Part shown: piece by piece, positions 37,458-51,261 of the stretch
Position numbering within the stretch: the first letter of the stretch is position 1
Layout: the number at the start of each line of letters is the position of its first letter
Source of the DNA: Tepidimonas alkaliphilus
Lineage (GTDB): Bacteria; Pseudomonadota; Gammaproteobacteria; Burkholderiales; Burkholderiaceae_C
Direction: 5' to 3'
DNA: 64,000 bases
NCBI RefSeq assembly: GCF_007556595.1
Contig: NZ_VJNB01000003.1
Span: 124,001-188,000, forward strand
Made by a program: the position numbers and the translations under genes
The notes under the pieces: generated by a model
What the model was told of the DNA's origin: nothing
What the model saw: the letters and a program-made list of their open reading frames with translations, nothing else
Database searches by the model: none

Positions 37458-38996
37458 CTAGCCCTCTTCAGCGTGCAGCAGGCTCAGACCGAGCTGGGCG
37501 CGACGGCGCAACCACGGCGAAGGCCGGTAGCGCGGGTCGCCGTAGAGCGCCTGCAGGCGCGTCAATACCGTCAGCAACCGATCCGGCCCCATGGCATCAC
37601 CCATGGCCAGCGGCCCCTGCGGGTAGCCCAAGCCCAGGGTAACGGCGGTTTCCAGGTCGGTCGGGGTGCAAATGCCTTGCTGGCAGATGTCGGCGGCGAT
37701 GTTGACGATGGTGGCCAGCGTGCGTTGGGTGACGAAGCCGCCGCTGTCGCGGATGACGCTGACCGGCTTGCCGTCGCGCGCGAGCAGCGCCTGCGCCGCA
37801 GCGCGCATCTCGGGGCGCGTGGCGGGATTGGTGGCCAGCACGCGGCGCTTGACGGCACCATCGGGCAGCAGCATGTCGAGGCCGACGGTGCGGCCAGGGT
37901 CGAGCTGCTCCTGCGCCGCCACGGTGGTGACGTCGTCGCCCAGCGGCGCCACCACGATCAGCGCCTGCTCCGACGGCTGGGCGGCGGTCTCGATCGTCGC
38001 GCCGAGCCCGTGCAGCAGTTGCAGCAACGCCTCCCGACGGCAGGCGCTGGGCGCGACCCAAACGGGCGGCAACGCCCCCACCACCGGCACAGGCGGCTCC
38101 GGCGGCACCTGCGCCTGCCCATCGACGTAGCGGTAGAAGCCCTCGCCGACCTTGCGCCCAACCACGCCGCCGGCCAGCCGCTGCGCCGCGATCACGCTTG
38201 GGCGAAAGCGCGGCTCCTCGTAATATTGGTGATAGATCGACTCCATCACCGGCTGCGAGACGTCCAGCGCCGTCAGATCCAGCAGCTCGAACGGCCCCAG
38301 GCGAAAGCCCACCTGGTCTTTCAGGATGCGGTCGATGGTGGCGAAGTCGGCCACGCGCTCGCCGGCGATGCGCAGCGCCTCGGTGATGTAGCCGCGCCCG
38401 GCGTGGTTGACGATGAAGCCCGGCGTGTCCTGCGCCATCACCGGCGTGTGGCCCAGCTCGCGCGCGAAGGCGGCCAGCCGCTGGGTGACGCCGGGGTCGG
38501 TCTTCAGCCCCGACACCACCTCGACCACCTTCATCAACGGCACCGGGTTGAAGAAGTGAAAGCCCGCCAGACGCTGCGGGGCGCGCAGCCGGCTGCCGAT
38601 CGCCGTCACCGACAGCGACGAGGTGTTGGTGGCCAGCACCGCGTCCTGGCCGACGATGTCTTCGAGCTGGGCAAACAGCGCCTGCTTGGCGTCCAGCCGC
38701 TCGACGATGGCCTCGATGACGAGGTCGCAGCCCGCCAGCGCCTCCACGCCCGCCGCCGGTGCCAGCCGCTGCAGGCACGCGGCGGCCTCATCTGCGGTCA
38801 TGCGGCCCTTGGCCACCAGCTTGTCCCAGGTCTCGCGCAGTGCCGCAAGCGCGGCCTGCACCGCTTCGGGCCGTGCGTCCAGCAGATGCACCACACAGCC
38901 GGCCTGCGCAGCGATCTGCGCGATGCCGCGGCCCATGGCGCCCGCGCCAACCAAGCCAATGTTGCGGAAAGTGAGACAGGCCGTTGCATCCGACAT
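37458..38996 (-). CDS. paaH: 3-hydroxyacyl-CoA dehydrogenase (PaaH-like)
   Basis: NAD-dependent oxidation of 3-hydroxyacyl-CoA to 3-ketoacyl-CoA. The 512-residue product has an N-terminal Rossmann domain (NIGLVGAGAMGRGIAQIAAQ), catalytic segments HFFNPVPLMKVVEVVSG and NHAGRGYITEALRIAGE, and a second C-terminal 3HCDH domain (DSGGFVTQRTLATIVNIAAD). This two-domain length fits PaaH rather than short FadB-type enzymes. ATG 38996 gives a normal N-terminus; the frame continues to 39050. With the hydratase it forms a beta-oxidation-like pair, with the Crp-like gene behind. Confidence 0.88.
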   Translation of the reverse strand: MSDATACLTFRNIGLVGAGAMGRGIAQIAAQAGCVVHLLDARPEAVQAALAALRETWDKLVAKGRMTADEAAACLQRLAPAAGVEALAGCDLVIEAIVERLDAKQALFAQLEDIVGQDAVLATNTSSLSVTAIGSRLRAPQRLAGFHFFNPVPLMKVVEVVSGLKTDPGVTQRLAAFARELGHTPVMAQDTPGFIVNHAGRGYITEALRIAGERVADFATIDRILKDQVGFRLGPFELLDLTALDVSQPVMESIYHQYYEEPRFRPSVIAAQRLAGGVVGRKVGEGFYRYVDGQAQVPPEPPVPVVGALPPVWVAPSACRREALLQLLHGLGATIETAAQPSEQALIVVAPLGDDVTTVAAQEQLDPGRTVGLDMLLPDGAVKRRVLATNPATRPEMRAAAQALLARDGKPVSVIRDSGGFVTQRTLATIVNIAADICQQGICTPTDLETAVTLGLGYPQGPLAMGDAMGPDRLLTVLTRLQALYGDPRYRPSPWLRRRAQLGLSLLHAEEG

Positions 38997-39097
38997 GGGC
39001 AATCCCGGTTCAACCCCATGAATATGACAAAATCGATGCGTGGGAGGCATCTTTAGCCCATCCGTGGATCATAGGCATGAAACTGAAGGATAACCGC

Positions 39098-41176
39098 ATG
39101 CGTCCCCTTGTTTTGGCCATCGCCGCAGGCTGGGCAGCCTGGCCTTCGCTGTGGGCCCAGTCGCTGGGTGCGGCGCAGGGGACGGTGCAGATCGGGCGTC
39201 CGCTGGACGTGGTGGTGGCCGCGCCTCTGGAAGGCGACGACCCTGCCGCGGTTTGCGCGCAGGCGTGGGTTCGCTTCGGGGATTTGCCGCTGCCGGCCTC
39301 CGAAGTGGCGCTGACGGTGGTGCGCGACGAAGCGCGCGGCAGCGGGTTGCGGGTGCGCACGCGCAGCGTGGTCAACGAGCCGGTGGTTCAGCTGCGGGTG
39401 ACCTTGGGCTGCGGCGCGCCGCTGACGCGCATCTACACCTTGCTGCCGCAGGCGCCCGAGGTTGTGGCCGAGGTCGCCATGCCTGCCGCGTCGGCGGCGG
39501 CAGCCGCTCCTGCGGCCACGGCTTTGCCGGTGGCGCGCGCGCAAGCTCCAGCAGCGGCGGCCTTGGATCCAGCCGGGTCGGCTCCTGCCGCGCCACGCAC
39601 GCCCAAGTCGGGTTCGCCACGCGCCGAGGCAACGTCCTCCCGAGCCTCAGCGCCCCGGGACGCCACGCGCTCCGCTGCGTCGGCGGCGCGTCCTCGACCG
39701 CCGCGAGATCCCTTGCCAACCCCTGTTGCCGCCCCCTCGTGGAGCAGCCGTTTGAGCGCGGAGTTGCTCACCCCTGTGGCCGCCGCGCCCGAAGGCGCGC
39801 CGCGCCTGAGCGTGGAACCGCTGGCGTTTGAGTCCGACGAAGCGTTTGTGCAGTTTTTGCTGGCCCGCTCGCTGGGCCTGGCGCCCGCACGCGCAGAACC
39901 TGAGGCGTCCCCGGCCGCCGAGGGGCAGCCCGATGCCGCTGCCGGCGCTGTGGCCACGCCCGCAGCGGCTGCGGCGGACGCGGCTGCGGCGCCGCCAGCC
40001 GCCGCGCCTCAGCCTCCTGCATCCCCAGCGCCGCAGGACGAGCTGCCGTGGACATGGATCGGGGCTGGCGCAGCGGCGCTGTTGCTGGCGGCGCTGGCGG
40101 CGCTGCGTTGGCGGCAGCGCTCCGGTGCGAGCGCGGATTCGGGTCGTTTTCGCTGGCTGTCGAAAGCGGCGGCAGATGGCGAGGGGGCCTTAGGGCCGTC
40201 GGCGCAGCGCCAAGATCCGGTGATCGCAACGGTCACCGCGTCAGCGGCTGGGGCGGCCCCGGCCACAACCCCGCGCGAGACGCCGGCCAAGCCCCTGCGA
40301 CGCGTTGAAGCGTCGGCCACCTCCCCTTTGGCTGCCCCGACAGCGACTGCCGTGCCGCGAGCGGCGTTGGCAGAAGAAGGCCGCGGGGCTGCTGCCACGC
40401 GCACGGTGCCGCCGCCCACGCCGCAAGCTCCCGCTGCCGCGGCAGCGCAGCCTCCATCGCGTCCGGCTCCTTCGCCGGTGTCGGCTGGGCCCGCGCAGGA
40501 GTCGGGCGATTTCGTCGCTGATTGGGATGCTGCTCCCCAGGAGGACAAGGCGGCAGCCGCCCGCGTCAACCAGGAGGCGGCGCTAGCAGTTTCAACCTCC
40601 ACTTCTGCCGCCATGCCCGCATCGTTGGATGTGGCGGCGCTGCACGAGCTGTGGCAGCGCGTGGACTTTCTCGTCGATCTTGGGCAGGTGTCGGATGCCA
40701 TCGCGGCGCTGCGCAGCTTTGTGCTAGCGCATCCCGGCGCCAGCGAAGCGCCTTATCGACGCTGGTGGGCGCTGGCGCAGGCAAGCGGCCTGGACGCTGG
40801 GTTGGCTCAGCGCACCTACGAAGCGCACTACCAGCGCCCCTGGCAGCCGGACGGGCTTGACGCCAGCCTGTTGGACGATGCCGAATGGCTGCAGCGCTTG
40901 CAAGCGGTTTGGCCCAAGGACGAAGCGCGCCGCCTCATCGAGGCAGCCTTGGCCAGTGCGCCGGGCCACGCTGGAGAGCCGCCGTTGGCGGTGCGCACCC
41001 TGGCCGCTTGGGACGACCTGATGTTGCTGCACGGCGTGCTGCAAGCGCGCGCGTCGTTGCCTGAGTCGGATCCCAACGCCGCGCCGTCCAGCCCTGCCGG
41101 TAAGGGCGAGGATGACCACGTTCTCGAGTTCGATCTAGGGGATTGGACGCCGCCGCCCGCCGCGCCGCAGCGCTAA
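39098..41176 (+). CDS. FimV-like periplasmic/inner-membrane protein
   Basis: 692-residue protein with a signal peptide (MRPLVLAIAAGWAAWPSLWA) and a FimV-type N-terminal domain (LGAAQGTVQIGRPLDVVV, then VNEPVVQLRVTLGCGAPLTR). About 200 residues of Ala/Pro/Arg-rich linker lead to one membrane helix near residue 320-340 (WTWIGAGAAALLLAALAALR). A second low-complexity stretch precedes a cytoplasmic TPR-like helical domain (from about 510). FimV/HubP proteins organise cell poles, type IV pili and type II secretion. ATG 39098 has AAGGA at eight bases; ATG 39077 is an alternative. It is shorter than typical FimV, so a paralogue is possible. Confidence 0.72.
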   Translation: MRPLVLAIAAGWAAWPSLWAQSLGAAQGTVQIGRPLDVVVAAPLEGDDPAAVCAQAWVRFGDLPLPASEVALTVVRDEARGSGLRVRTRSVVNEPVVQLRVTLGCGAPLTRIYTLLPQAPEVVAEVAMPAASAAAAAPAATALPVARAQAPAAAALDPAGSAPAAPRTPKSGSPRAEATSSRASAPRDATRSAASAARPRPPRDPLPTPVAAPSWSSRLSAELLTPVAAAPEGAPRLSVEPLAFESDEAFVQFLLARSLGLAPARAEPEASPAAEGQPDAAAGAVATPAAAAADAAAAPPAAAPQPPASPAPQDELPWTWIGAGAAALLLAALAALRWRQRSGASADSGRFRWLSKAAADGEGALGPSAQRQDPVIATVTASAAGAAPATTPRETPAKPLRRVEASATSPLAAPTATAVPRAALAEEGRGAAATRTVPPPTPQAPAAAAAQPPSRPAPSPVSAGPAQESGDFVADWDAAPQEDKAAAARVNQEAALAVSTSTSAAMPASLDVAALHELWQRVDFLVDLGQVSDAIAALRSFVLAHPGASEAPYRRWWALAQASGLDAGLAQRTYEAHYQRPWQPDGLDASLLDDAEWLQRLQAVWPKDEARRLIEAALASAPGHAGEPPLAVRTLAAWDDLMLLHGVLQARASLPESDPNAAPSSPAGKGEDDHVLEFDLGDWTPPPAAPQR

Positions 41177-44534: not shown

Positions 44535-46544
44535 TCACGCGGGATCGGCCTCACGCTGCAGCGCCTCGATCGTCTCCACGAGCAGCAGCCAGCGTTCCTC
44601 GGCGGCGGCCAGTTCCGCCTCCAGCGCCTTCAGCCGCCGGCCCGCCTCGGCGATGGTGGCGCCGTCGCGCAAGCTGGCCAGCGTCTCCTGCAGCTCGGCC
44701 TGTTCGGCCTGCAGCGCCGCCATGCGCGCCTCCAGCGCCTGCTGCTCGCGCTGGTGCGGGCGCAGCCGCTCGGCCAGGCGCTGGCGCTGCTGCGCCTGCA
44801 GCCGGCGGCGTTCCTGCGGCGCCAGGGCCGGTTCGGCGGCGTGCGCGGCGGACGGGCGTGCACCGCCGGCGGGCCCGGAGTCGCTCTTGCGCGAGGCGGC
44901 CAGCGCCTCGCGCCGCTGGCGCGCCACCTCCTGCAGGTGGCGCTGGTAGTCGTCCAGGTCGCCGTCGAACGGCTGCAGCCGCCCTGCGGCCACCAGCCAG
45001 AACGTGTCGCAGACGCGGCGCAGCAGCGCGCGGTCGTGGCTGACCAGCAGCACGGTGCCGTCGAAGCCGGCCAGCGCCAGCGCCAGCGCCTCGCGCGTGG
45101 CCAGGTCGAGGTGGTTGGTCGGCTCGTCCAGCAGCAGCAGGTTGGGGCGCTGCCACACCAGCAGCGCCAGTACCAGGCGCGCCTTTTCGCCGCCGCTCAT
45201 CGTGCCGACCGGCTGCAGCGCCGCCTCGCCGCCGAACTGAAAGCCGCCGAGGAAGCTGCGCAGGTCCTGCTCGCGCACCGACTGCCCCGGCAACAGGGCG
45301 CCGGCGGCCTCGGTGTCGCGCGCCAGCCGCTGCAGGTGCTCCAGCGGCGTCTCGTCGGTGCGCAGCACCTCCAGCTCCTGCTGCGCGAAGTAGCCGATGC
45401 GCAGCCCGCGGCCCGGCTGCAGCCGCCCCTGCAGCGGCGGCAGCACGCCGGCCAGCGTCTTGACCAGCGTGGACTTGCCCTGGCCGTTGGCGCCGAGGAT
45501 GCCGATGCGCTGGCCCGGCAGCAGGCTGGCGCGCACGCCGTGCACGATCGGGCGCGCCTGCCCGCTGGCGGCGTCGCGGTAGCCGGCGGTGACGTCGTGC
45601 AGCACCAGCAGCGGGTTCGGCGGCGGGCCGGGTTCGGCGAACTCGAAGCTGAAGTCGGCCTCGGCCAGCACCGGCGCGACGCGCTCCATGCGCGCCAGCG
45701 CCTTTAAGCGGCTCTGCGCCTGGCGCGCCTTGGTGGCCTTGGCGCGGAAGCGTTCGACGAAGCGCTGCAGGTGGGCGATGCGCTCCTGCTGGCGTTCGAA
45801 GGCGGCCTGCTGCTGCGCCTGCTGCTGCGCGCGCTGCTCCTCGAAGGCGCTGTAGCCGCCGGCGTAGCGCGTCAGCCGTCCGCCTTCCAGGTGCAGCGTG
45901 ACGCGCGTGACGGCGTCCAGAAATTCGCGGTCGTGGCTGATGACGATCAGCGTGCCGGGGTAGCGTTGCAGCCAGCCCTCCAGCCACACCAGCGCGTCGA
46001 GGTCGAGGTGGTTGGTCGGCTCATCCAGCAACAGCAGGTCGCTCGGGCTCATCAGCGCGCGCGCCAGCTGCAGCCGCATGCGCCAGCCGCCGGAGAAAGC
46101 GCCGACCGGCTGCTCGAGTTCCGCCGGCGCAAAGCCCAGCCCCAGCAGCAGCGCCTGGGCGCGCGCCGGCGCGTCGTGCGCGCCGGCGTCGGCCAGCCGC
46201 GCGTGCGCCAGCGCGATCGCCTCGCCGTCGCCGGCGGCCTCGGCGCCGGCCAGCGCCGCGCGCGCCTCGACCAGCCGGGCATCGCCGTCCAGCACGAATG
46301 CGGTGGCCGGCTGCGCGCCATCCGGCATGTGCTGCGCCACGTGGGCGGTGCGCCAGCCGCGCGGGCGCTGCAGTTCGCCGGCGTCCTCGTGCAGCTCGCC
46401 GAGCAGCAGCGCGAACAGGCTGGACTTGCCGGCGCCGTTGCGGCCCACCAGGCCGATCTTCTCGCCGGCGTGCAGCGTGACGCTGGCGCGCTCCAGCACC
46501 ACCTTGGCGCCGCGGCGCAGCGTGACGTCGCGCAGCACGATCAT
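44535..46544 (-). CDS. ABC-F ATPase, YheS type
   Basis: 669-residue soluble tandem ATPase that acts on the ribosome E site, not in transport. First domain: GLVGRNGAGKSSLFALLLGE, signature FSGGWRMRLQLARAL, LLLLDEPTNHLD. Second domain: GILGANGQGKSTLVKTLAGV, signature MSGGEKARLVLALL, and a second DEPTNHLD. A charged linker lies between them, and a Gln/Arg/Glu-rich coiled coil of about 100 residues ends the protein. The opening MIVLRDVTLRRGAKVVLERA resembles E. coli YheS. It overlaps prmB by four bases. Confidence 0.9.
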   Translation of the reverse strand: MIVLRDVTLRRGAKVVLERASVTLHAGEKIGLVGRNGAGKSSLFALLLGELHEDAGELQRPRGWRTAHVAQHMPDGAQPATAFVLDGDARLVEARAALAGAEAAGDGEAIALAHARLADAGAHDAPARAQALLLGLGFAPAELEQPVGAFSGGWRMRLQLARALMSPSDLLLLDEPTNHLDLDALVWLEGWLQRYPGTLIVISHDREFLDAVTRVTLHLEGGRLTRYAGGYSAFEEQRAQQQAQQQAAFERQQERIAHLQRFVERFRAKATKARQAQSRLKALARMERVAPVLAEADFSFEFAEPGPPPNPLLVLHDVTAGYRDAASGQARPIVHGVRASLLPGQRIGILGANGQGKSTLVKTLAGVLPPLQGRLQPGRGLRIGYFAQQELEVLRTDETPLEHLQRLARDTEAAGALLPGQSVREQDLRSFLGGFQFGGEAALQPVGTMSGGEKARLVLALLVWQRPNLLLLDEPTNHLDLATREALALALAGFDGTVLLVSHDRALLRRVCDTFWLVAAGRLQPFDGDLDDYQRHLQEVARQRREALAASRKSDSGPAGGARPSAAHAAEPALAPQERRRLQAQQRQRLAERLRPHQREQQALEARMAALQAEQAELQETLASLRDGATIAEAGRRLKALEAELAAAEERWLLLVETIEALQREADPA

Positions 46545-47491
46545 GGCGCGCCCCGCTTCGGGTCGGGCGGCAGGTCGGCGCGCGCGGCCTGCAGCGCCGC
46601 GCGGGTGACGAGCAGCACCGCATCCGGCCCCGCGCTGGTGTGCAGCCACTCCACCGCCAGCGTCGGAAACGCCGCCTCGAAGTGCGCGCGCTCGTGGCCG
46701 ATCTCCAGCACCAGCACGGCGTCTTCCTCCATGTGGTCGGCGGCGCGCGCCAGCAGGTGGCGCACGAAGTCCATGCCGTCGTCCCCGCCGTCCAGCGCCA
46801 GCGCCGGCTCGGCGCGGTATTCCGGCGGCAGCGCCGCCATGCTGGCGCGGTTGACGTAGGGCGGATTGCACAGGATCAGGTCCCAGCGCCCTTCCAGCCC
46901 GCACCAGCCGTCGGCCTGCCGCAGCCGGATGCGGTCCTGCAGCCCGTGGCGCGCCACGTTGCGCGCCGCCACCTCCAGCGCCTCGGCGCTGATGTCGGTG
47001 GCGTCCACCGTGACGTCGGGCCAGGCCAGCGCCGCCAGCACCGCCAGCGACCCGTTGCCGGTGCACAGGTCCAGCGCGCGCCGCGTGTGCGCGCCCAGCC
47101 ACGGGTCGATCGCGTCGGCCTGCGGCGCCGCGGCGATGATCTCGGCGATCAGGCTGCGCGGCACGATCACGCGCTCATCGACGAAGAACGGCACGCCCTG
47201 CAGCCACGCCTCGCCAGTCAGGTAGGCGGCGGGCTTGCGCGTGCGGATGCGTTCTTCGATCAGCGCGCGCACCGTGGCGGCCTCGGTCTCCGTCACCGCA
47301 CGCGCGCCTTCGGCGCTGAGATCCAGATCCAGCGGCAGCCCGAGCCGCCACAGCACCAGCCACGCGGCCTCGTCGCGCGCGCAAGTCGTACCGTGGCCGA
47401 AGCTGACGCCGGCCTCGGCTAGGCGCCGCTCGGCTTCGGCCACCAAGTCGCCCAAGGTCGGGCCCAACGGCGAAGATCGATCGGCGGTCAT
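46541..47491 (-). CDS. prmB: PrmB, ribosomal protein L3 N5-glutamine methyltransferase
   Basis: Methylates the side chain of a Gln in ribosomal protein L3. The 316-residue product has an N-terminal helical domain, the substrate loop VPFFVDERVIVPRSLIAEII, SAM-binding ALDLCTGNGSLAVLAAL and the catalytic NPPY in LILCNPPYVNRAS. VPRSLIAEII and the overall length favour PrmB over PrmC. It overlaps both neighbours by four bases, linking translation of prmB with the L,D-transpeptidase-like gene upstream and the ABC-F gene downstream. Confidence 0.92.
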   Translation of the reverse strand: MTADRSSPLGPTLGDLVAEAERRLAEAGVSFGHGTTCARDEAAWLVLWRLGLPLDLDLSAEGARAVTETEAATVRALIEERIRTRKPAAYLTGEAWLQGVPFFVDERVIVPRSLIAEIIAAAPQADAIDPWLGAHTRRALDLCTGNGSLAVLAALAWPDVTVDATDISAEALEVAARNVARHGLQDRIRLRQADGWCGLEGRWDLILCNPPYVNRASMAALPPEYRAEPALALDGGDDGMDFVRHLLARAADHMEEDAVLVLEIGHERAHFEAAFPTLAVEWLHTSAGPDAVLLVTRAALQAARADLPPDPKRGAP

Positions 47492-49065
47492 CGCGTGCGC
47501 TCCTCCACGATCAGCCAGCGCGAGCCTTCGCGCTGCAACACCAGGGTCTTGCGCACGCGCAGCTCGCGCTGGCCATCGGCACGGTAGCGCTGGATGAAGG
47601 TCACGCTGGCGCGCTGGCCGTCCAGGCGCACCCGCGGCTGCAACACTTCCACCTCGATGCGGCGCTTGTCTTCGATGCGTTGACGCCGTTGCGCTTCCCA
47701 AGCGGCGCGGCTCAGACCTGCTTCGGGTTGAAAGCGCGGATGGTAGTGCGCCAAGTAAGCTTTGACGTCGCGCGCGCTCCAGGCGCGGGCCCAGGACTGC
47801 ACGGCTTGCAGCACGGGGCGCATCTCGGCGTTAGGGTTGGCGGACGCCTCCTCGGCGCCTTCTTCGCGGTGGCGCGCCGCTGGGGCAGCCGCCTGCACCG
47901 TCTCAGCAGGCCGCGCTGGCAGGGCGCCGGCGACGTGCTGCAAGCCGTCTTCGGCTTCGCGCAAAAACCAAGTGTGGCGCGCACCGTCGGGGGCGTCGGG
48001 ACGGTATTCCACGCGCCAATACCGCTGGCCGTCGCGTTCGATCCAGCGTTGCACGCCGAGCCGGGTAAGGTCAAGGTCTTGACCGAGACGCTGGCGTGCC
48101 CACATCTGGATCAGCGCCAGTGCTTCGTCGCGCTCACGCTGGTGTTGGCCGGGCGGCAACCACTGCACGGAAGGCACGACCAGAACCGGGCTGTCGATGG
48201 CGTCGCGCAGCTCTATCAGCTGACGCATGTCCGGGTTGGCCAGCACAATGCAACCTTCGGAGGCCAGCGGATCGCGGGTATAGGTATCCGGCGGGCTGCC
48301 GTGCAACCAGATGCCGCTGCCGGTGCGTCCCAGCAGCCGATCGACGGGGTTGGGGTAGTCCAGCACCAGCGCGCCCGCGCCGTAAAACGCCGGCAACTCT
48401 TCAGCTGGACGTCGGCCAGTGATCCGATAGACCCCCAGCGGCGTTTTGTTGTCGCCTTCCACTTGTTTGCCGACCCCCGCTTTGCCGACCGAAATGTAAA
48501 AGCTGGACACCAGCTTGGGCGGGCCGTCGTCCTCAGGACGCTGAAACCAATACAGGCGCAAGGTGCTGGCATCCACCACGAATGCATGCCGGCTTTGGGG
48601 CGAGAACGTCACCAAGCCCGCAGGCCAAGCCGCCTCTGAGGGTAGATGATCCGGTGCGCGCAGACGCCGCTGCCATTCGTCGGCCAGCGCCTGCAGCGCG
48701 GGATCGCTGGGCTGCGCCGTGAGCTGGGAGCCAAGACCGGCGCGCACGCGTCGCACATCGGCCAGCAGCGCGTGCGCCAGCTTGAAGTGCGGCTCGCGCG
48801 CCACCAGCTCCATCAACAAGGACTCCGCCTGGCCAAGCTGCCCGTCCAACAACGCTTGGGATGCGGCCAGCAAGGCGCGTTCCGGTTCGGACAACAAGGC
48901 TGCGCCCGCCGGTGGCGGCGAGATCCCTGACGGCGTATCGGCTGCTGCGCGCGGCAATCCGCCGCCGCGGCCGTCTCGGGCGCTTAGCCACCACCAGGTG
49001 GCGGCGGGGATGGACAACAAAACCACTGCGGCGGCGCTAAGCCGCCACAGAGCCAAGGTTCGCAT
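47488..49065 (-). CDS. YkuD (L,D-transpeptidase/carboxypeptidase) protein with C-terminal NTF2-like domain
   Basis: 525-residue envelope protein. A membrane anchor (about 8-28) is followed by a helical TPR-like region (60-135) and a YkuD catalytic domain (about 158-300). The active site is HGS at 255-257 and SEGC with nucleophile Cys272. The usual Arg after Cys in SHGCxR is replaced (GCIVL). A second linker leads to an NTF2/SnoaL-like domain (about 415-525: SWARAWSARDVKAYLAHYHP). YkuD plus NTF2 is the layout of Helicobacter Csd6 and Campylobacter Pgp2, which trim peptidoglycan tetrapeptides. The same NTF2-like domain ends the TPR protein 11 bases upstream. It overlaps prmB. Confidence 0.87.
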   Translation of the reverse strand: MRTLALWRLSAAAVVLLSIPAATWWWLSARDGRGGGLPRAAADTPSGISPPPAGAALLSEPERALLAASQALLDGQLGQAESLLMELVAREPHFKLAHALLADVRRVRAGLGSQLTAQPSDPALQALADEWQRRLRAPDHLPSEAAWPAGLVTFSPQSRHAFVVDASTLRLYWFQRPEDDGPPKLVSSFYISVGKAGVGKQVEGDNKTPLGVYRITGRRPAEELPAFYGAGALVLDYPNPVDRLLGRTGSGIWLHGSPPDTYTRDPLASEGCIVLANPDMRQLIELRDAIDSPVLVVPSVQWLPPGQHQRERDEALALIQMWARQRLGQDLDLTRLGVQRWIERDGQRYWRVEYRPDAPDGARHTWFLREAEDGLQHVAGALPARPAETVQAAAPAARHREEGAEEASANPNAEMRPVLQAVQSWARAWSARDVKAYLAHYHPRFQPEAGLSRAAWEAQRRQRIEDKRRIEVEVLQPRVRLDGQRASVTFIQRYRADGQRELRVRKTLVLQREGSRWLIVEERTR

Positions 49066-49076
49066 GGGGCTGCAGT

Positions 49077-50072
49077 TTAAAGGGTGCGCTCGCTGGCAAT
49101 CAGCCAGCGCCCCCCTTGCTGCGTCAGCACCAGCTCCTTGCGGGTGCGGTTATCCAGCGAATCCGACCGATATTGCTGCACGAAGCGCACGGCCACCGAG
49201 CCATCGTTGCGCGGCTGAATTTGCACATCCGACAGCTCCACCTCGATGCGCTTGCGCGGCACGATGCGCGCGGTGCGTTCGTTGACCCACTGCTCGTGGC
49301 TCATGCCGTTTTTGGGCGTGTAGCGCGGCACGTAGCTTTCGACGTAGGCTTGGATGTCGCGCGCGCTCCAGGCGCGACGCCATTGCTCCAAGGCTTCGCG
49401 CACGGCCTGTTCCACATTGTCGCCAGAGGTTGGCGACGTGGGTTTGGCCGTCGGCGCCGGAGCCGGTGTCGGCGGGTTGGCGGCAGGCGCAGCCGCGGCG
49501 GACGAGCCAGAGGCCGAAGCGGGAGCGGCGGCCGCCGCCGGGGCCGTCGCCGCAGGCGTCAGCGCCACCACCTGGTTGATCAAGCGCAGCTTGGGCTGCA
49601 GCTCTTTTTTCGGTTGCAGGTTAAGCGCCCGCGCATAGGATTGGCTGGCCAGCTTGGCGTAGATGTCGCCCAGGTTTTCGTAAGCCGTGGCGTAGCTAGG
49701 GTTGGTCTTGATGGCCATTTCCAGCACCGCGCGGGCTTTGTCAAAGTCGCCATCGGCAGCGTAGAGCACCGCCAGGTTGTTGTAAGGCTCGGGCAGCTGG
49801 GGATGATCGACAATGAGGTTTTGGAAAATCGTGCGGGCGTCCTTGCTGCGGCCGGTTTCGGCCAGGATGACCCCCTTGAGCAGCAACAACTGCGGATCTT
49901 TGGGGTTGGCGGCCAATTGCTCTTCCAGCATGGAGAGGGCCTGCGTGCTTTTGCCGCTGCGATAGGCGGCCAGCGCCGCCTCAGGGGTCGAGGCCCATGC
50001 GCTTGCCCAAGCGCACGCCGCGCCGAGGGCCAGGCAGGACAGTTTCCAGGCTCGGGTTACCGACAACATCAT
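49077..50072 (-). CDS. Exported TPR protein with NTF2-like C-terminal domain
   Basis: 331-residue protein with a signal peptide (MMLSVTRAWKLSCLALGAAC and onward, ending SAWA) and several TPR units (about 30-165, for example YNNLAVLYAADGDFDKARAV). An Ala/Pro linker follows, then an NTF2/SnoaL-like domain (about 215-331, REALEQWRRAWSARDIQAYV). That last domain closely matches the C-terminus of the neighbouring YkuD protein, including WLIxxERT at the end. It starts 22 bases after dapE; no clear ribosome site is seen. A scaffold or partner role in peptidoglycan remodelling is an inference from the shared domain and position. Confidence 0.85.
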   Translation of the reverse strand: MMLSVTRAWKLSCLALGAACAWASAWASTPEAALAAYRSGKSTQALSMLEEQLAANPKDPQLLLLKGVILAETGRSKDARTIFQNLIVDHPQLPEPYNNLAVLYAADGDFDKARAVLEMAIKTNPSYATAYENLGDIYAKLASQSYARALNLQPKKELQPKLRLINQVVALTPAATAPAAAAAPASASGSSAAAAPAANPPTPAPAPTAKPTSPTSGDNVEQAVREALEQWRRAWSARDIQAYVESYVPRYTPKNGMSHEQWVNERTARIVPRKRIEVELSDVQIQPRNDGSVAVRFVQQYRSDSLDNRTRKELVLTQQGGRWLIASERTL

Positions 50073-50094: not shown

Positions 50095-51261
50095 TCAGGC
50101 GGTCTGGGACAGCCGCTGCAGGGTGCGATGATACACAAGTGTCAAAGTTTCCAGATCGGCCAGCGCGACGTGCTCATCGACCTTGTGGATCGACGCATTC
50201 GGGGGGCCTAGCTCCACCACTTGCGGGCAAAGGGCGGCGATGAAGCGCCCGTCGCTGGTGCCGCCCGAGGTGGACAGCTCTGGGGTCAGCCCGGTGACAT
50301 CCTGAACGGCTGCGGTGACCGCCTCCACCAGCGTGCCACGGGGGGTTAGAAACGGCAAACCACCCACCGTCCACGTGAGGTCGTAGTCCTCGCCAGGCCG
50401 CAAGCCGTGGCGGTGCAGCACGCTCTCGAAGCGCGCCTGCAGCCCGGCTGCCGTGGAGGCGGTGCCGAACCGAAAGTTGAAGTCCAGCGTGACGCTGCCG
50501 GGGATGACGTTGCTGGCGCCGGTGCCGCCGTGGATGTTGCTGACCTGCCAGCTGGTGGGCTGGAAGTGTTCGTTGCCGTCGTCCCAGCGAGTGGCCGCCC
50601 ATTCCGCCAGCGCGGGCGCCAGCAGGTGGATCGGGTTGCGCGCCAGGTGCGGGTAGGCGATGTGGCCCTGGATGCCCCTGACCGTGAGCCGTCCGCTCAT
50701 CGTGCCACGGCGGCCGTTCTTGATCATGTCGCCGGTGCGCTGCACGCTGGTGGGCTCGCCGACGATGCACCAGTCCAGCCGCTGGCCGCGCTGGCGCAGC
50801 AGCTCGCACACCGCCGCAGTGCCGTCGCGGGCCGGCCCTTCCTCGTCGCTGGTGAGCAGGAAAGCCAGCGCCAGCGGCGCGTCGGTCTGCTCGGCCACAA
50901 AGCGTTCCACCGCCACCACCATGGCCGCCAGCGAGCCTTTCATGTCGGCTGCTCCGCGGCCCCACAAGCAGCCATCCCGCACCACGGGCTCAAAAGGGTC
51001 GCTGCGCCAGCGCTCGCGCGGCCCCGGCGGCACCACATCGGTGTGACCGGCCAGCACCAGCACTGGCGCCTGGGGCGTGGGCCCCGGGCGCAGCGCCCAC
51101 AAGTTGGTGACGCGAAAATCCGCCGGGCCGCGCTCGATGGTTTCGCAGACAAAGCCCAGCGCGCGCAATCGCTCGGCCAGCAAAGCTTGGCAGCCCGCAT
51201 CGTCGGGCGTGATCGAGGGGCGGCGCATCAGCGCTTGCGCCAATTCCAAAGTGGCCGTCAT
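50095..51261 (-). CDS. dapE: DapE, succinyl-diaminopimelate desuccinylase
   Basis: Zinc hydrolase of the succinylase branch of diaminopimelate/lysine synthesis. The 388-residue product is an M20-family protein with metal-binding segments [31 protein letters not shown] and [15 protein letters not shown], and the dimerisation domain [16 protein letters not shown]. The C-terminal segment is [17 protein letters not shown]. It belongs to the same array as dapC and dapD, separated from dapD by the pilU-type gene. Confidence 0.96.

Follow-up and report, generated by a model that had tools for sequence, protein, structure and literature searches.

A YkuD–NTF2 protein and a TPR protein sharing its NTF2-like domain form a recurrent gene pair and a candidate peptidoglycan-editing module in Tepidimonas alkaliphilus and its relatives

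Results

Gene pair and domain organization

The stretch analyzed here (the window) comprises 64,000 nucleotides of Tepidimonas alkaliphilus (contig NZ_VJNB01000003.1, positions 124,001 to 188,000). It carries on its minus strand two adjacent genes, one encoding a protein with a YkuD catalytic domain and a C-terminal NTF2-like domain (the enzyme) and the other a tetratricopeptide repeat (TPR) protein with the same NTF2-like domain (the partner). Both had been picked out by a first-pass annotation made from the DNA letters, and their coordinates were borne out by the open reading frames and their domains by Pfam. The partner gene lies upstream and is separated by 11 bp from the enzyme gene, the TGA stop of which overlaps the ATG of prmB (ATGA, 47488–47491, as read in the sequence). 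Residues are compared below with those of Helicobacter Csd6 (Protein Data Bank (PDB) 4xzz), Campylobacter Pgp2 (6xj6) and Bdellovibrio Bd1075 (7o21), the last an LD-carboxypeptidase that sets curvature; all three, like the enzyme, combine YkuD and NTF2 domains. The pair has the following features.

47488..49065, minus strand: YkuD–NTF2 protein, 525 amino acids (open reading frame, Pfam, PDB relatives); probably a periplasmic LD-carboxypeptidase, by prediction
48661..48888, minus strand: enzyme residues 60–135, N-terminal helical region with four predicted helices (model)
48211..48585, minus strand: enzyme residues 161–285, YkuD catalytic domain (Pfam, 7.5e-16)
48301..48303, minus strand: catalytic His255, with Trp253 two residues earlier (aligned with Csd6 H160 and W158)
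48250..48252, minus strand: catalytic Cys272 in SEGCIVL (aligned with Csd6 C176)
47857..48159, minus strand: enzyme residues 303–403, extra module of 101 residues, one helix and four short strands (alignment, model)
47500..47814, minus strand: enzyme residues 418–522, C-terminal NTF2-like domain (Cds6_C) of the type found in TPR partners (Pfam 3.1e-12, profiles, tree)
49077..50072, minus strand: TPR–NTF2 partner, 331 amino acids (open reading frame, Pfam; signal peptide by eye)
49623..49979, minus strand: partner residues 32–150, TPR superhelix (Pfam, model)
49089..49403, minus strand: partner residues 224–328, NTF2-like domain (Cds6_C) (Pfam 8e-18; VIA fold matches)

These two proteins gave the only Cds6_C matches in the 2.46-Mb window genome, and the 525-residue enzyme its sole PF03734 YkuD match; YkuD_2 gave none (all at E ≤ 0.01).

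Shared NTF2-like domain

Both proteins belong to the Pfam family PF24125 (Cds6_C), with scores of 47.2 for the enzyme and 65.2 for the partner against a cut-off of 27. Over enzyme residues 379–524, the two share 46% identity in their NTF2 regions (E = 1e-24), far beyond chance, in agreement with the first-pass statement that the two C-termini are very similar. AlphaFold models showed NTF2 folds at both C-termini, as had been supposed. For the partner domain, VIA gave the highest scores to the NTF2 domains of Csd6 (4xzz, residues 209–330; Z 16.2, root-mean-square deviation (rmsd) 1.7 over 113 residues) and Pgp2 (6xj7; Z 16.0, rmsd 1.5 over 113 residues), on a par with further NTF2 folds, for example 3cnx (Z 15.8). 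Foldseek ranked Bd1075 first for the same domain and placed Bd1075, Csd6 and Pgp2 in the top ranks for the enzyme model. No cross-linking YkuD enzyme was among the matches listed by Foldseek and the fold searches, which is not evidence of absence.

The NTF2 pocket of Pgp2 is reported to bind peptidoglycan, and its residues to matter according to mutations (PMC8038945; papers given by PMC number are cited for the passages available from them). Pgp2 Y233, F242, K257, K307 and E324, together with Bd1075 Y274, correspond to Y437, F445, R460, K506, E522 and Y494 of the enzyme and, in the same order, to Y, Y, R, K, E and Y of the partner. Judged by these residues, the shared module appears to keep the peptidoglycan pocket in both window proteins, in keeping with the first-pass idea of a shared binding or docking domain, except that Lys257 is replaced by Arg and, in the partner, Phe242 by Tyr.

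Catalytic domain

In a phmmer search of the PDB with the enzyme, Bd1075 (E = 3.6e-27), Csd6 (2e-21) and Pgp2 (6.6e-16) were recovered. A profile built from 10 homologues returned Bd1075 (218.6 bits), Csd6 (174.8) and two Pgp2 sequences (158.8 and 154.2) with both domains covered, followed by DpaA at 39.4 bits (E = 3.4e-9); nothing beyond these four proteins, and no cross-linking enzyme, was found in the PDB at E ≤ 0.01. By this search, the enzyme stands nearer to Csd6, Pgp2 and Bd1075 than to cross-linking transpeptidases, and the tree of YkuD domains, in which the four E. coli transpeptidases lie apart, points the same way (90/75, not starred, long branches). In the same tree Bd1075, Csd6, Pgp2 and DpaA grouped with two distant loci (L010, L012) at 95/89, starred, on long branches. 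The NCBIfam models for DpaA (NF040599) and for the recycling LD-carboxypeptidase ElsL (NF040925) gave 18 bits versus a cut-off of 365 and 19.8 bits versus a cut-off of 270, respectively.

Csd6 residues K107, Y133, W158, H160 and C176 were matched in 31/31 aligned enzymes (an alignment made without the incomplete G041 and the divergent G052). The annotated absence of the usual Arg after the GC of SEGCIVL was confirmed: Val274 stands two residues after Cys272, and Val is also found there in Bd1075, Ala in Csd6, Pgp2 and DpaA, and Arg in all four of E. coli LdtB, LdtC, LdtD and LdtE. At Trp253 the enzyme matches the D-Ala-pocket Trp of LD-carboxypeptidases, where DpaA has Met. In its available passages, PMC10653827 names a Tyr and a Trp as carboxypeptidase-specific yet gives DpaA a Tyr too, and the Trp is therefore the telling residue. 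That paper numbers the pocket Tyr as 132 in a legend and as 133 in its text; the enzyme has Tyr228 at position 133 (Tyr in 31/31) but Phe227 at 132, where Bd1075 has Leu. A single-entry active site is explained in PMC4599014. Sequence and modeled fold thus favor the proposed assignment to LD-carboxypeptidases of the Csd6/Pgp2 type, a type that would include Bd1075.

Conservation of the pair

The enzyme was found in 33 of 60 genomes (that of the window and 59 relatives), and the TPR–NTF2 gene was adjacent in 32 of the 33 (the window and 31 of 32 stretches); the single non-adjacent case (G041) lies at a contig end. The same pairing was seen at six gammaproteobacterial loci (L004–L008 and L011) among nine named loci (L004–L012) with a YkuD relative that also matched the NTF2 or C-terminal part of the query, and was not seen in the DNA available for L009, L010 and L012. 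Across the phylum, Cds6_C occurred in 66 of 150 genomes. Among the matches listed, at least 36 of these 66 (window included) had two copies within 3 kb on one strand, spaced by 1213–1329 bp in 35 and by 1589 bp in the window. In each of five such pairs, chosen from five other families, the upstream gene had a partner-type domain and the downstream gene an enzyme-type domain together with a YkuD motif (5/5). The two genes form a recurrent module in many related bacteria.

Outside the window's genus, a cysS-like frame was present near the pair in 21/28 stretches, and the order cysS, partner, enzyme, isomerase gene(s) and lpxH was confirmed in 7/7 checked stretches, one with a single isomerase match. 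At cysS loci without the enzyme, the TPR gene stays and the NTF2 match was absent in 20/20 (tblastn, E ≤ 1e-5; 10 loci from the window's genus and 10 others). A further NTF2-less TPR locus, in G044, brings the total to 21 of 22 inspected loci, with G032 as the one exception, and four of the 21 belong to genus members with the pair elsewhere, between dapE and prmB. Eighteen of the 27 enzyme-less genomes were inspected at the cysS/TPR locus; of the other nine, G054 stood outside the count and seven gave no partner match at 1e-10. In G055, Cds6_C was present only on a different frame of 568 amino acids. Because the pairing occurs in other families and in Gammaproteobacteria, we infer that its absence reflects loss rather than gain. 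The earlier view of the pair as a functional unit gains support, at the level of sequence, from the conserved adjacency and from the NTF2-less TPR protein found where the enzyme is absent.

The dapE–prmB site

In the window the pair is flanked by two genes that lie outside the module.

50095..51261, minus strand: dapE (TIGR01246 over cut-off, synteny), upstream flank of the insertion site
46541..47491, minus strand: prmB, L3 glutamine methyltransferase (TIGR03533 over cut-off, synteny), downstream flank of the insertion site

The order of transcription is dapC, dapD, a PilT/PilU-family ATPase gene, dapE, TPR–NTF2, YkuD–NTF2 and prmB. The description of the locus as a dap array held insofar as dapC, dapD and dapE are nearby, but the array is interrupted by the ATPase gene and the downstream neighbor is prmB. 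Five of the 11 genus members (G000, G001, G003, G004 and G006) have the pair between dapE and prmB; in the other six, as in two outgroups, prmB directly follows dapE. Since the junction stands without the pair in these 8/8 stretches examined, the dap genes were rejected as functional context, contrary to the first-pass suggestion; the placement of the pair beside them is incidental, and outside the genus its neighbors include cysS and genes for peptidyl-prolyl isomerases. The six genus genomes G002, G005 and G007–G010 gave no PF03734 match at E ≤ 0.001.

Mapped onto a tree of six genes, the distribution of the pair requires four changes, and the genome most closely related to that of the window is without it; within the genus, loss and gain cannot be told apart by counting. 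The enzyme and partner genes both evolve under purifying selection, with dN/dS (G003 versus G004) of about 0.25 and 0.27, respectively, compared with 0.10 for dapE. A pN/pS of 1.41 for dapD (G000 versus G001) was disregarded, being probably an out-of-frame artefact. Import of the pair from outside the family was not supported: the tree of enzyme plus partner, in which genus and family were set against 12 rows of other families (G026, G041 and G052 left out), puts the genus with the family at 100/99, and the tree of the partner alone does so at 91/88, not starred. As to a possible transfer within the genus, conflict between the enzyme-plus-partner tree and the species tree was weak (p = 0.216 for G000 + G001; p = 0.0312 for G000 + G001 + G006).

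Change of NTF2 type in the genus

For assignment of NTF2 subtypes, one profile was made from 13 partners and another from 12 enzymes, all of other families, with the tested member left out each time and the enzymes of G041 and G052 omitted. Outside the genus, the partner profile won for 27/27 partners and 0/26 enzymes; within it, it won for 5/5 partners and also for 5/5 enzymes. The two Cds6_C subtypes, enzyme-type and partner-type, are distinguishable by sequence. At six diagnostic columns the genus enzymes carry the partner residue in 29 of 30 cells; at one of these columns (428), that residue is mostly common to the family's other enzymes too. In the NTF2 tree, the genus enzymes fall on the partner side of a 100/100 branch.

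The pocket positions, in the order given above, are occupied in 10, 11, 12 (K or R), 12, 12 and 11 of 12 enzymes of other families. All six are almost invariably present in partners outside the genus (27/27, with Arg at 257; E324 is Asp once). In the family's other 14 enzymes, three of the six are lost, namely Pgp2 Y233 and K257 and Bd1075 Y274 (0/14 each, Arg allowed at K257). We read this pattern as suggesting that in the family the working pocket stayed on the partner, and that the genus enzyme again has an intact pocket, of partner type.

The extra module between YkuD and NTF2 is present in the five genus enzymes and in 0/28 other aligned enzymes, and could perhaps be a shrunken ancestral NTF2 domain. 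When it was compared with the family enzyme profile, the score was reached by 9 (G000), 13 (G003), 1 (G004), 29 (G001) and 169 (G006) of 400 shuffles each. Profile–profile alignment gave z = 2.6 for the whole module and 3.6 for its strand part, with a best alignment that differs from the expected one; this signal is not specific, because the C-terminal NTF2 domain of the genus, used as a control, scored alike (z = 2.3 and 3.2). Nothing convincing was obtained for the module with hhalign.

Discussion

The nearest characterized relatives of the enzyme share its two domains and differ in what surrounds them. Bd1075, its best PDB sequence match and first Foldseek match, conserves the pocket Tyr274 and is reported to be targeted to the convex face by its NTF2 domain (PMC8938487). 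It differs from the window enzyme in a C-terminal extension with W303, whereas the window enzyme has the 101-residue stretch between YkuD and NTF2 and a partner-type NTF2; the available passages of PMC8938487 mention no TPR–NTF2 partner for Bd1075. Csd6 and Pgp2 have the catalytic and NTF2 pocket residues of the window enzyme. In both, a short linker joins the catalytic domain to the NTF2 domain after it, in contrast to the intervening module and the second gene with the same domain seen here. Titles and abstract openings held no mention of a TPR–NTF2 partner, in a search that left most subscription journals and bioRxiv preprints uncovered, and the available part of a 2025 review (PMC12729407) does not mention NTF2, tetratricopeptide or Csd6. 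An Aeromonas YkuD protein related to Csd6 affects cell length with no muropeptide change seen, according to the passages available from PMC4398505, and is a caution against inferring chemistry from homology alone.

We consider it likely that the two genes form a peptidoglycan-editing module, composed of an LD-carboxypeptidase and a wall-bound TPR scaffold that share an NTF2 pocket. The enzyme would act in the periplasm in the manner of Csd6, Pgp2 and Bd1075, taking the terminal D-Ala off tetrapeptide stems to leave tripeptides without cross-linking. The NTF2 pockets on both proteins would bind stem peptides and so place the enzyme on the wall, with the partner recruiting or positioning it, presumably in trans through contact between the two. 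Removal of D-Ala, stem-peptide binding and placement are proposed by analogy with Pgp2 and Bd1075. In the window's family, the intact pocket would have been retained on the partner; in the genus, the pair would have been relocated between dapE and prmB, and the enzyme would have gained a partner-type NTF2 domain, so that an intact pocket now lies on both proteins. This direction of the evolutionary steps, and an effect of the module on cell shape, are what we would expect.

Several points weigh against this reading. LD-carboxypeptidase activity, binding and phenotype are predictions. The models, built from 10 and 7 sequences, are of moderate quality (predicted template modeling scores of 0.54 and 0.42), and neither Csd6 nor Bd1075 could be superposed on both enzyme domains at once (rmsd 14–16 over 241–256 residues). 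In one passage of PMC10653827 it is Tyr132, not Tyr133, that is carboxypeptidase-specific, and the window enzyme has Phe227 there. The YkuD phylogeny proposed by the first-pass annotation as a check set the E. coli transpeptidases apart but gave the window's group no firm place relative to Bd1075/Csd6/Pgp2 and DpaA, and DpaA is nearer to those three than the window enzyme is. Six of the 11 genus members do without the module, which is thus dispensable, and the TPR protein of G032 keeps its NTF2 domain with no YkuD in the 6.2-kb stretch read (a stretch that also gave no cysS match). Family enzymes keep the pocket in part (F242 in 11/14, K307 in 10/14 and E324 in 12/14). Finally, approximately unbiased tests rejected neither a grouping of the genus-enzyme NTF2 with that of all other enzymes (p = 0.361) nor one with that of the family (p = 0.155), so that vertical descent is not rejected and the change of NTF2 type rests on the profile scores and diagnostic residues.

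Rather than a scaffold and its client, the pair could be an LD-carboxypeptidase and a separate wall-bound protein, with NTF2 domains that merely recognize the same ligand and genes co-inherited through one transcription unit. Such an account is helped by the occurrence of Cds6_C on TolC-like and SurA-like proteins without YkuD (below), which means that having the domain is not in itself a sign of contact with the enzyme, and by the G032 partner, whose NTF2 domain is kept without an adjoining YkuD gene; shared transcription alone would not, however, predict that enzyme-less loci keep the TPR part and lack NTF2 in 21 of 22 cases, and we regard it as unlikely. The remaining alternatives concern the chemistry. 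DpaA, the next PDB relative, is likewise without the Arg, and the tree does not set it clearly apart from the LD-carboxypeptidases, which would suit a hydrolase with another bond preference, for instance a DpaA-like amidase or a glycine-specific carboxypeptidase; given the Met of DpaA at the position of Trp253 and the score far below the cut-off of the DpaA model, this seems improbable. Slightly less credit still is given to a YkuD transpeptidase with an accessory NTF2 domain, which would cross-link stems or attach proteins to the wall, a function that the Pfam name of the YkuD domain (L,D-transpeptidase catalytic domain) would suggest. Against this, the enzyme lacks the Arg shared by the four E. 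coli transpeptidases and has the carboxypeptidase-pocket Trp, those transpeptidases fall outside the group of the enzymes, and no cross-linking enzyme was among its PDB sequence matches at E ≤ 0.01.

Beyond the scaffold reading, we put forward more tentatively, as a possibility somewhat short of even, that partner-type Cds6_C is a portable wall-docking module. The scaffold would dock the enzyme in trans; the family enzyme, having lost key parts of its pocket, would have relied on the scaffold; and the genus enzyme would have regained docking in cis by copying its neighbor's domain. Fusions to TolC-like and SurA-like proteins might in the same way tether those machines to the wall.

A conserved partner with the same pocket, and an NTF2 domain that tracks the presence of the enzyme, offer a genetic handle on how LD-carboxypeptidases, Bd1075 and Pgp2 among them, come to occupy a particular part of the wall. 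The genus, with the pair in 5 of 11 members and no PF03734 YkuD in six, provides a natural comparison for wall chemistry and shape.

Additional observations

Partner-type Cds6_C also occurs C-terminally in TolC-like efflux proteins of the outer membrane (PF02321; two relatives, L115:1014-2846 and L116:1151-3196) and in SurA-like chaperones with SurA_N and rotamase domains (two genomes that share a genus code, L118:1108-2832 and L119:894-2606). A literature search for NTF2 with SurA and TolC found no paper. One open frame has a TRAP transporter DctM domain followed by Cds6_C (L117:829-3567), and a Desulfobacterales protein has Cds6_C near its N-terminus and a different C-terminal region (L013:5812-6822), which is perhaps AMIN-like. 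In the TPR protein of G032 (G032:C3, L150), an Ala/Pro-rich linker of several hundred residues sets the NTF2 domain apart, and the stretch read has no YkuD gene next to it. An Acidobacteria open frame (L014:4933-6426) is, by eye, an apparent fusion of an M23 peptidase with YkuD. In the window itself, positions 38984-41176 hold a long open frame with Ala/Pro-rich stretches, presumably resembling FimV.

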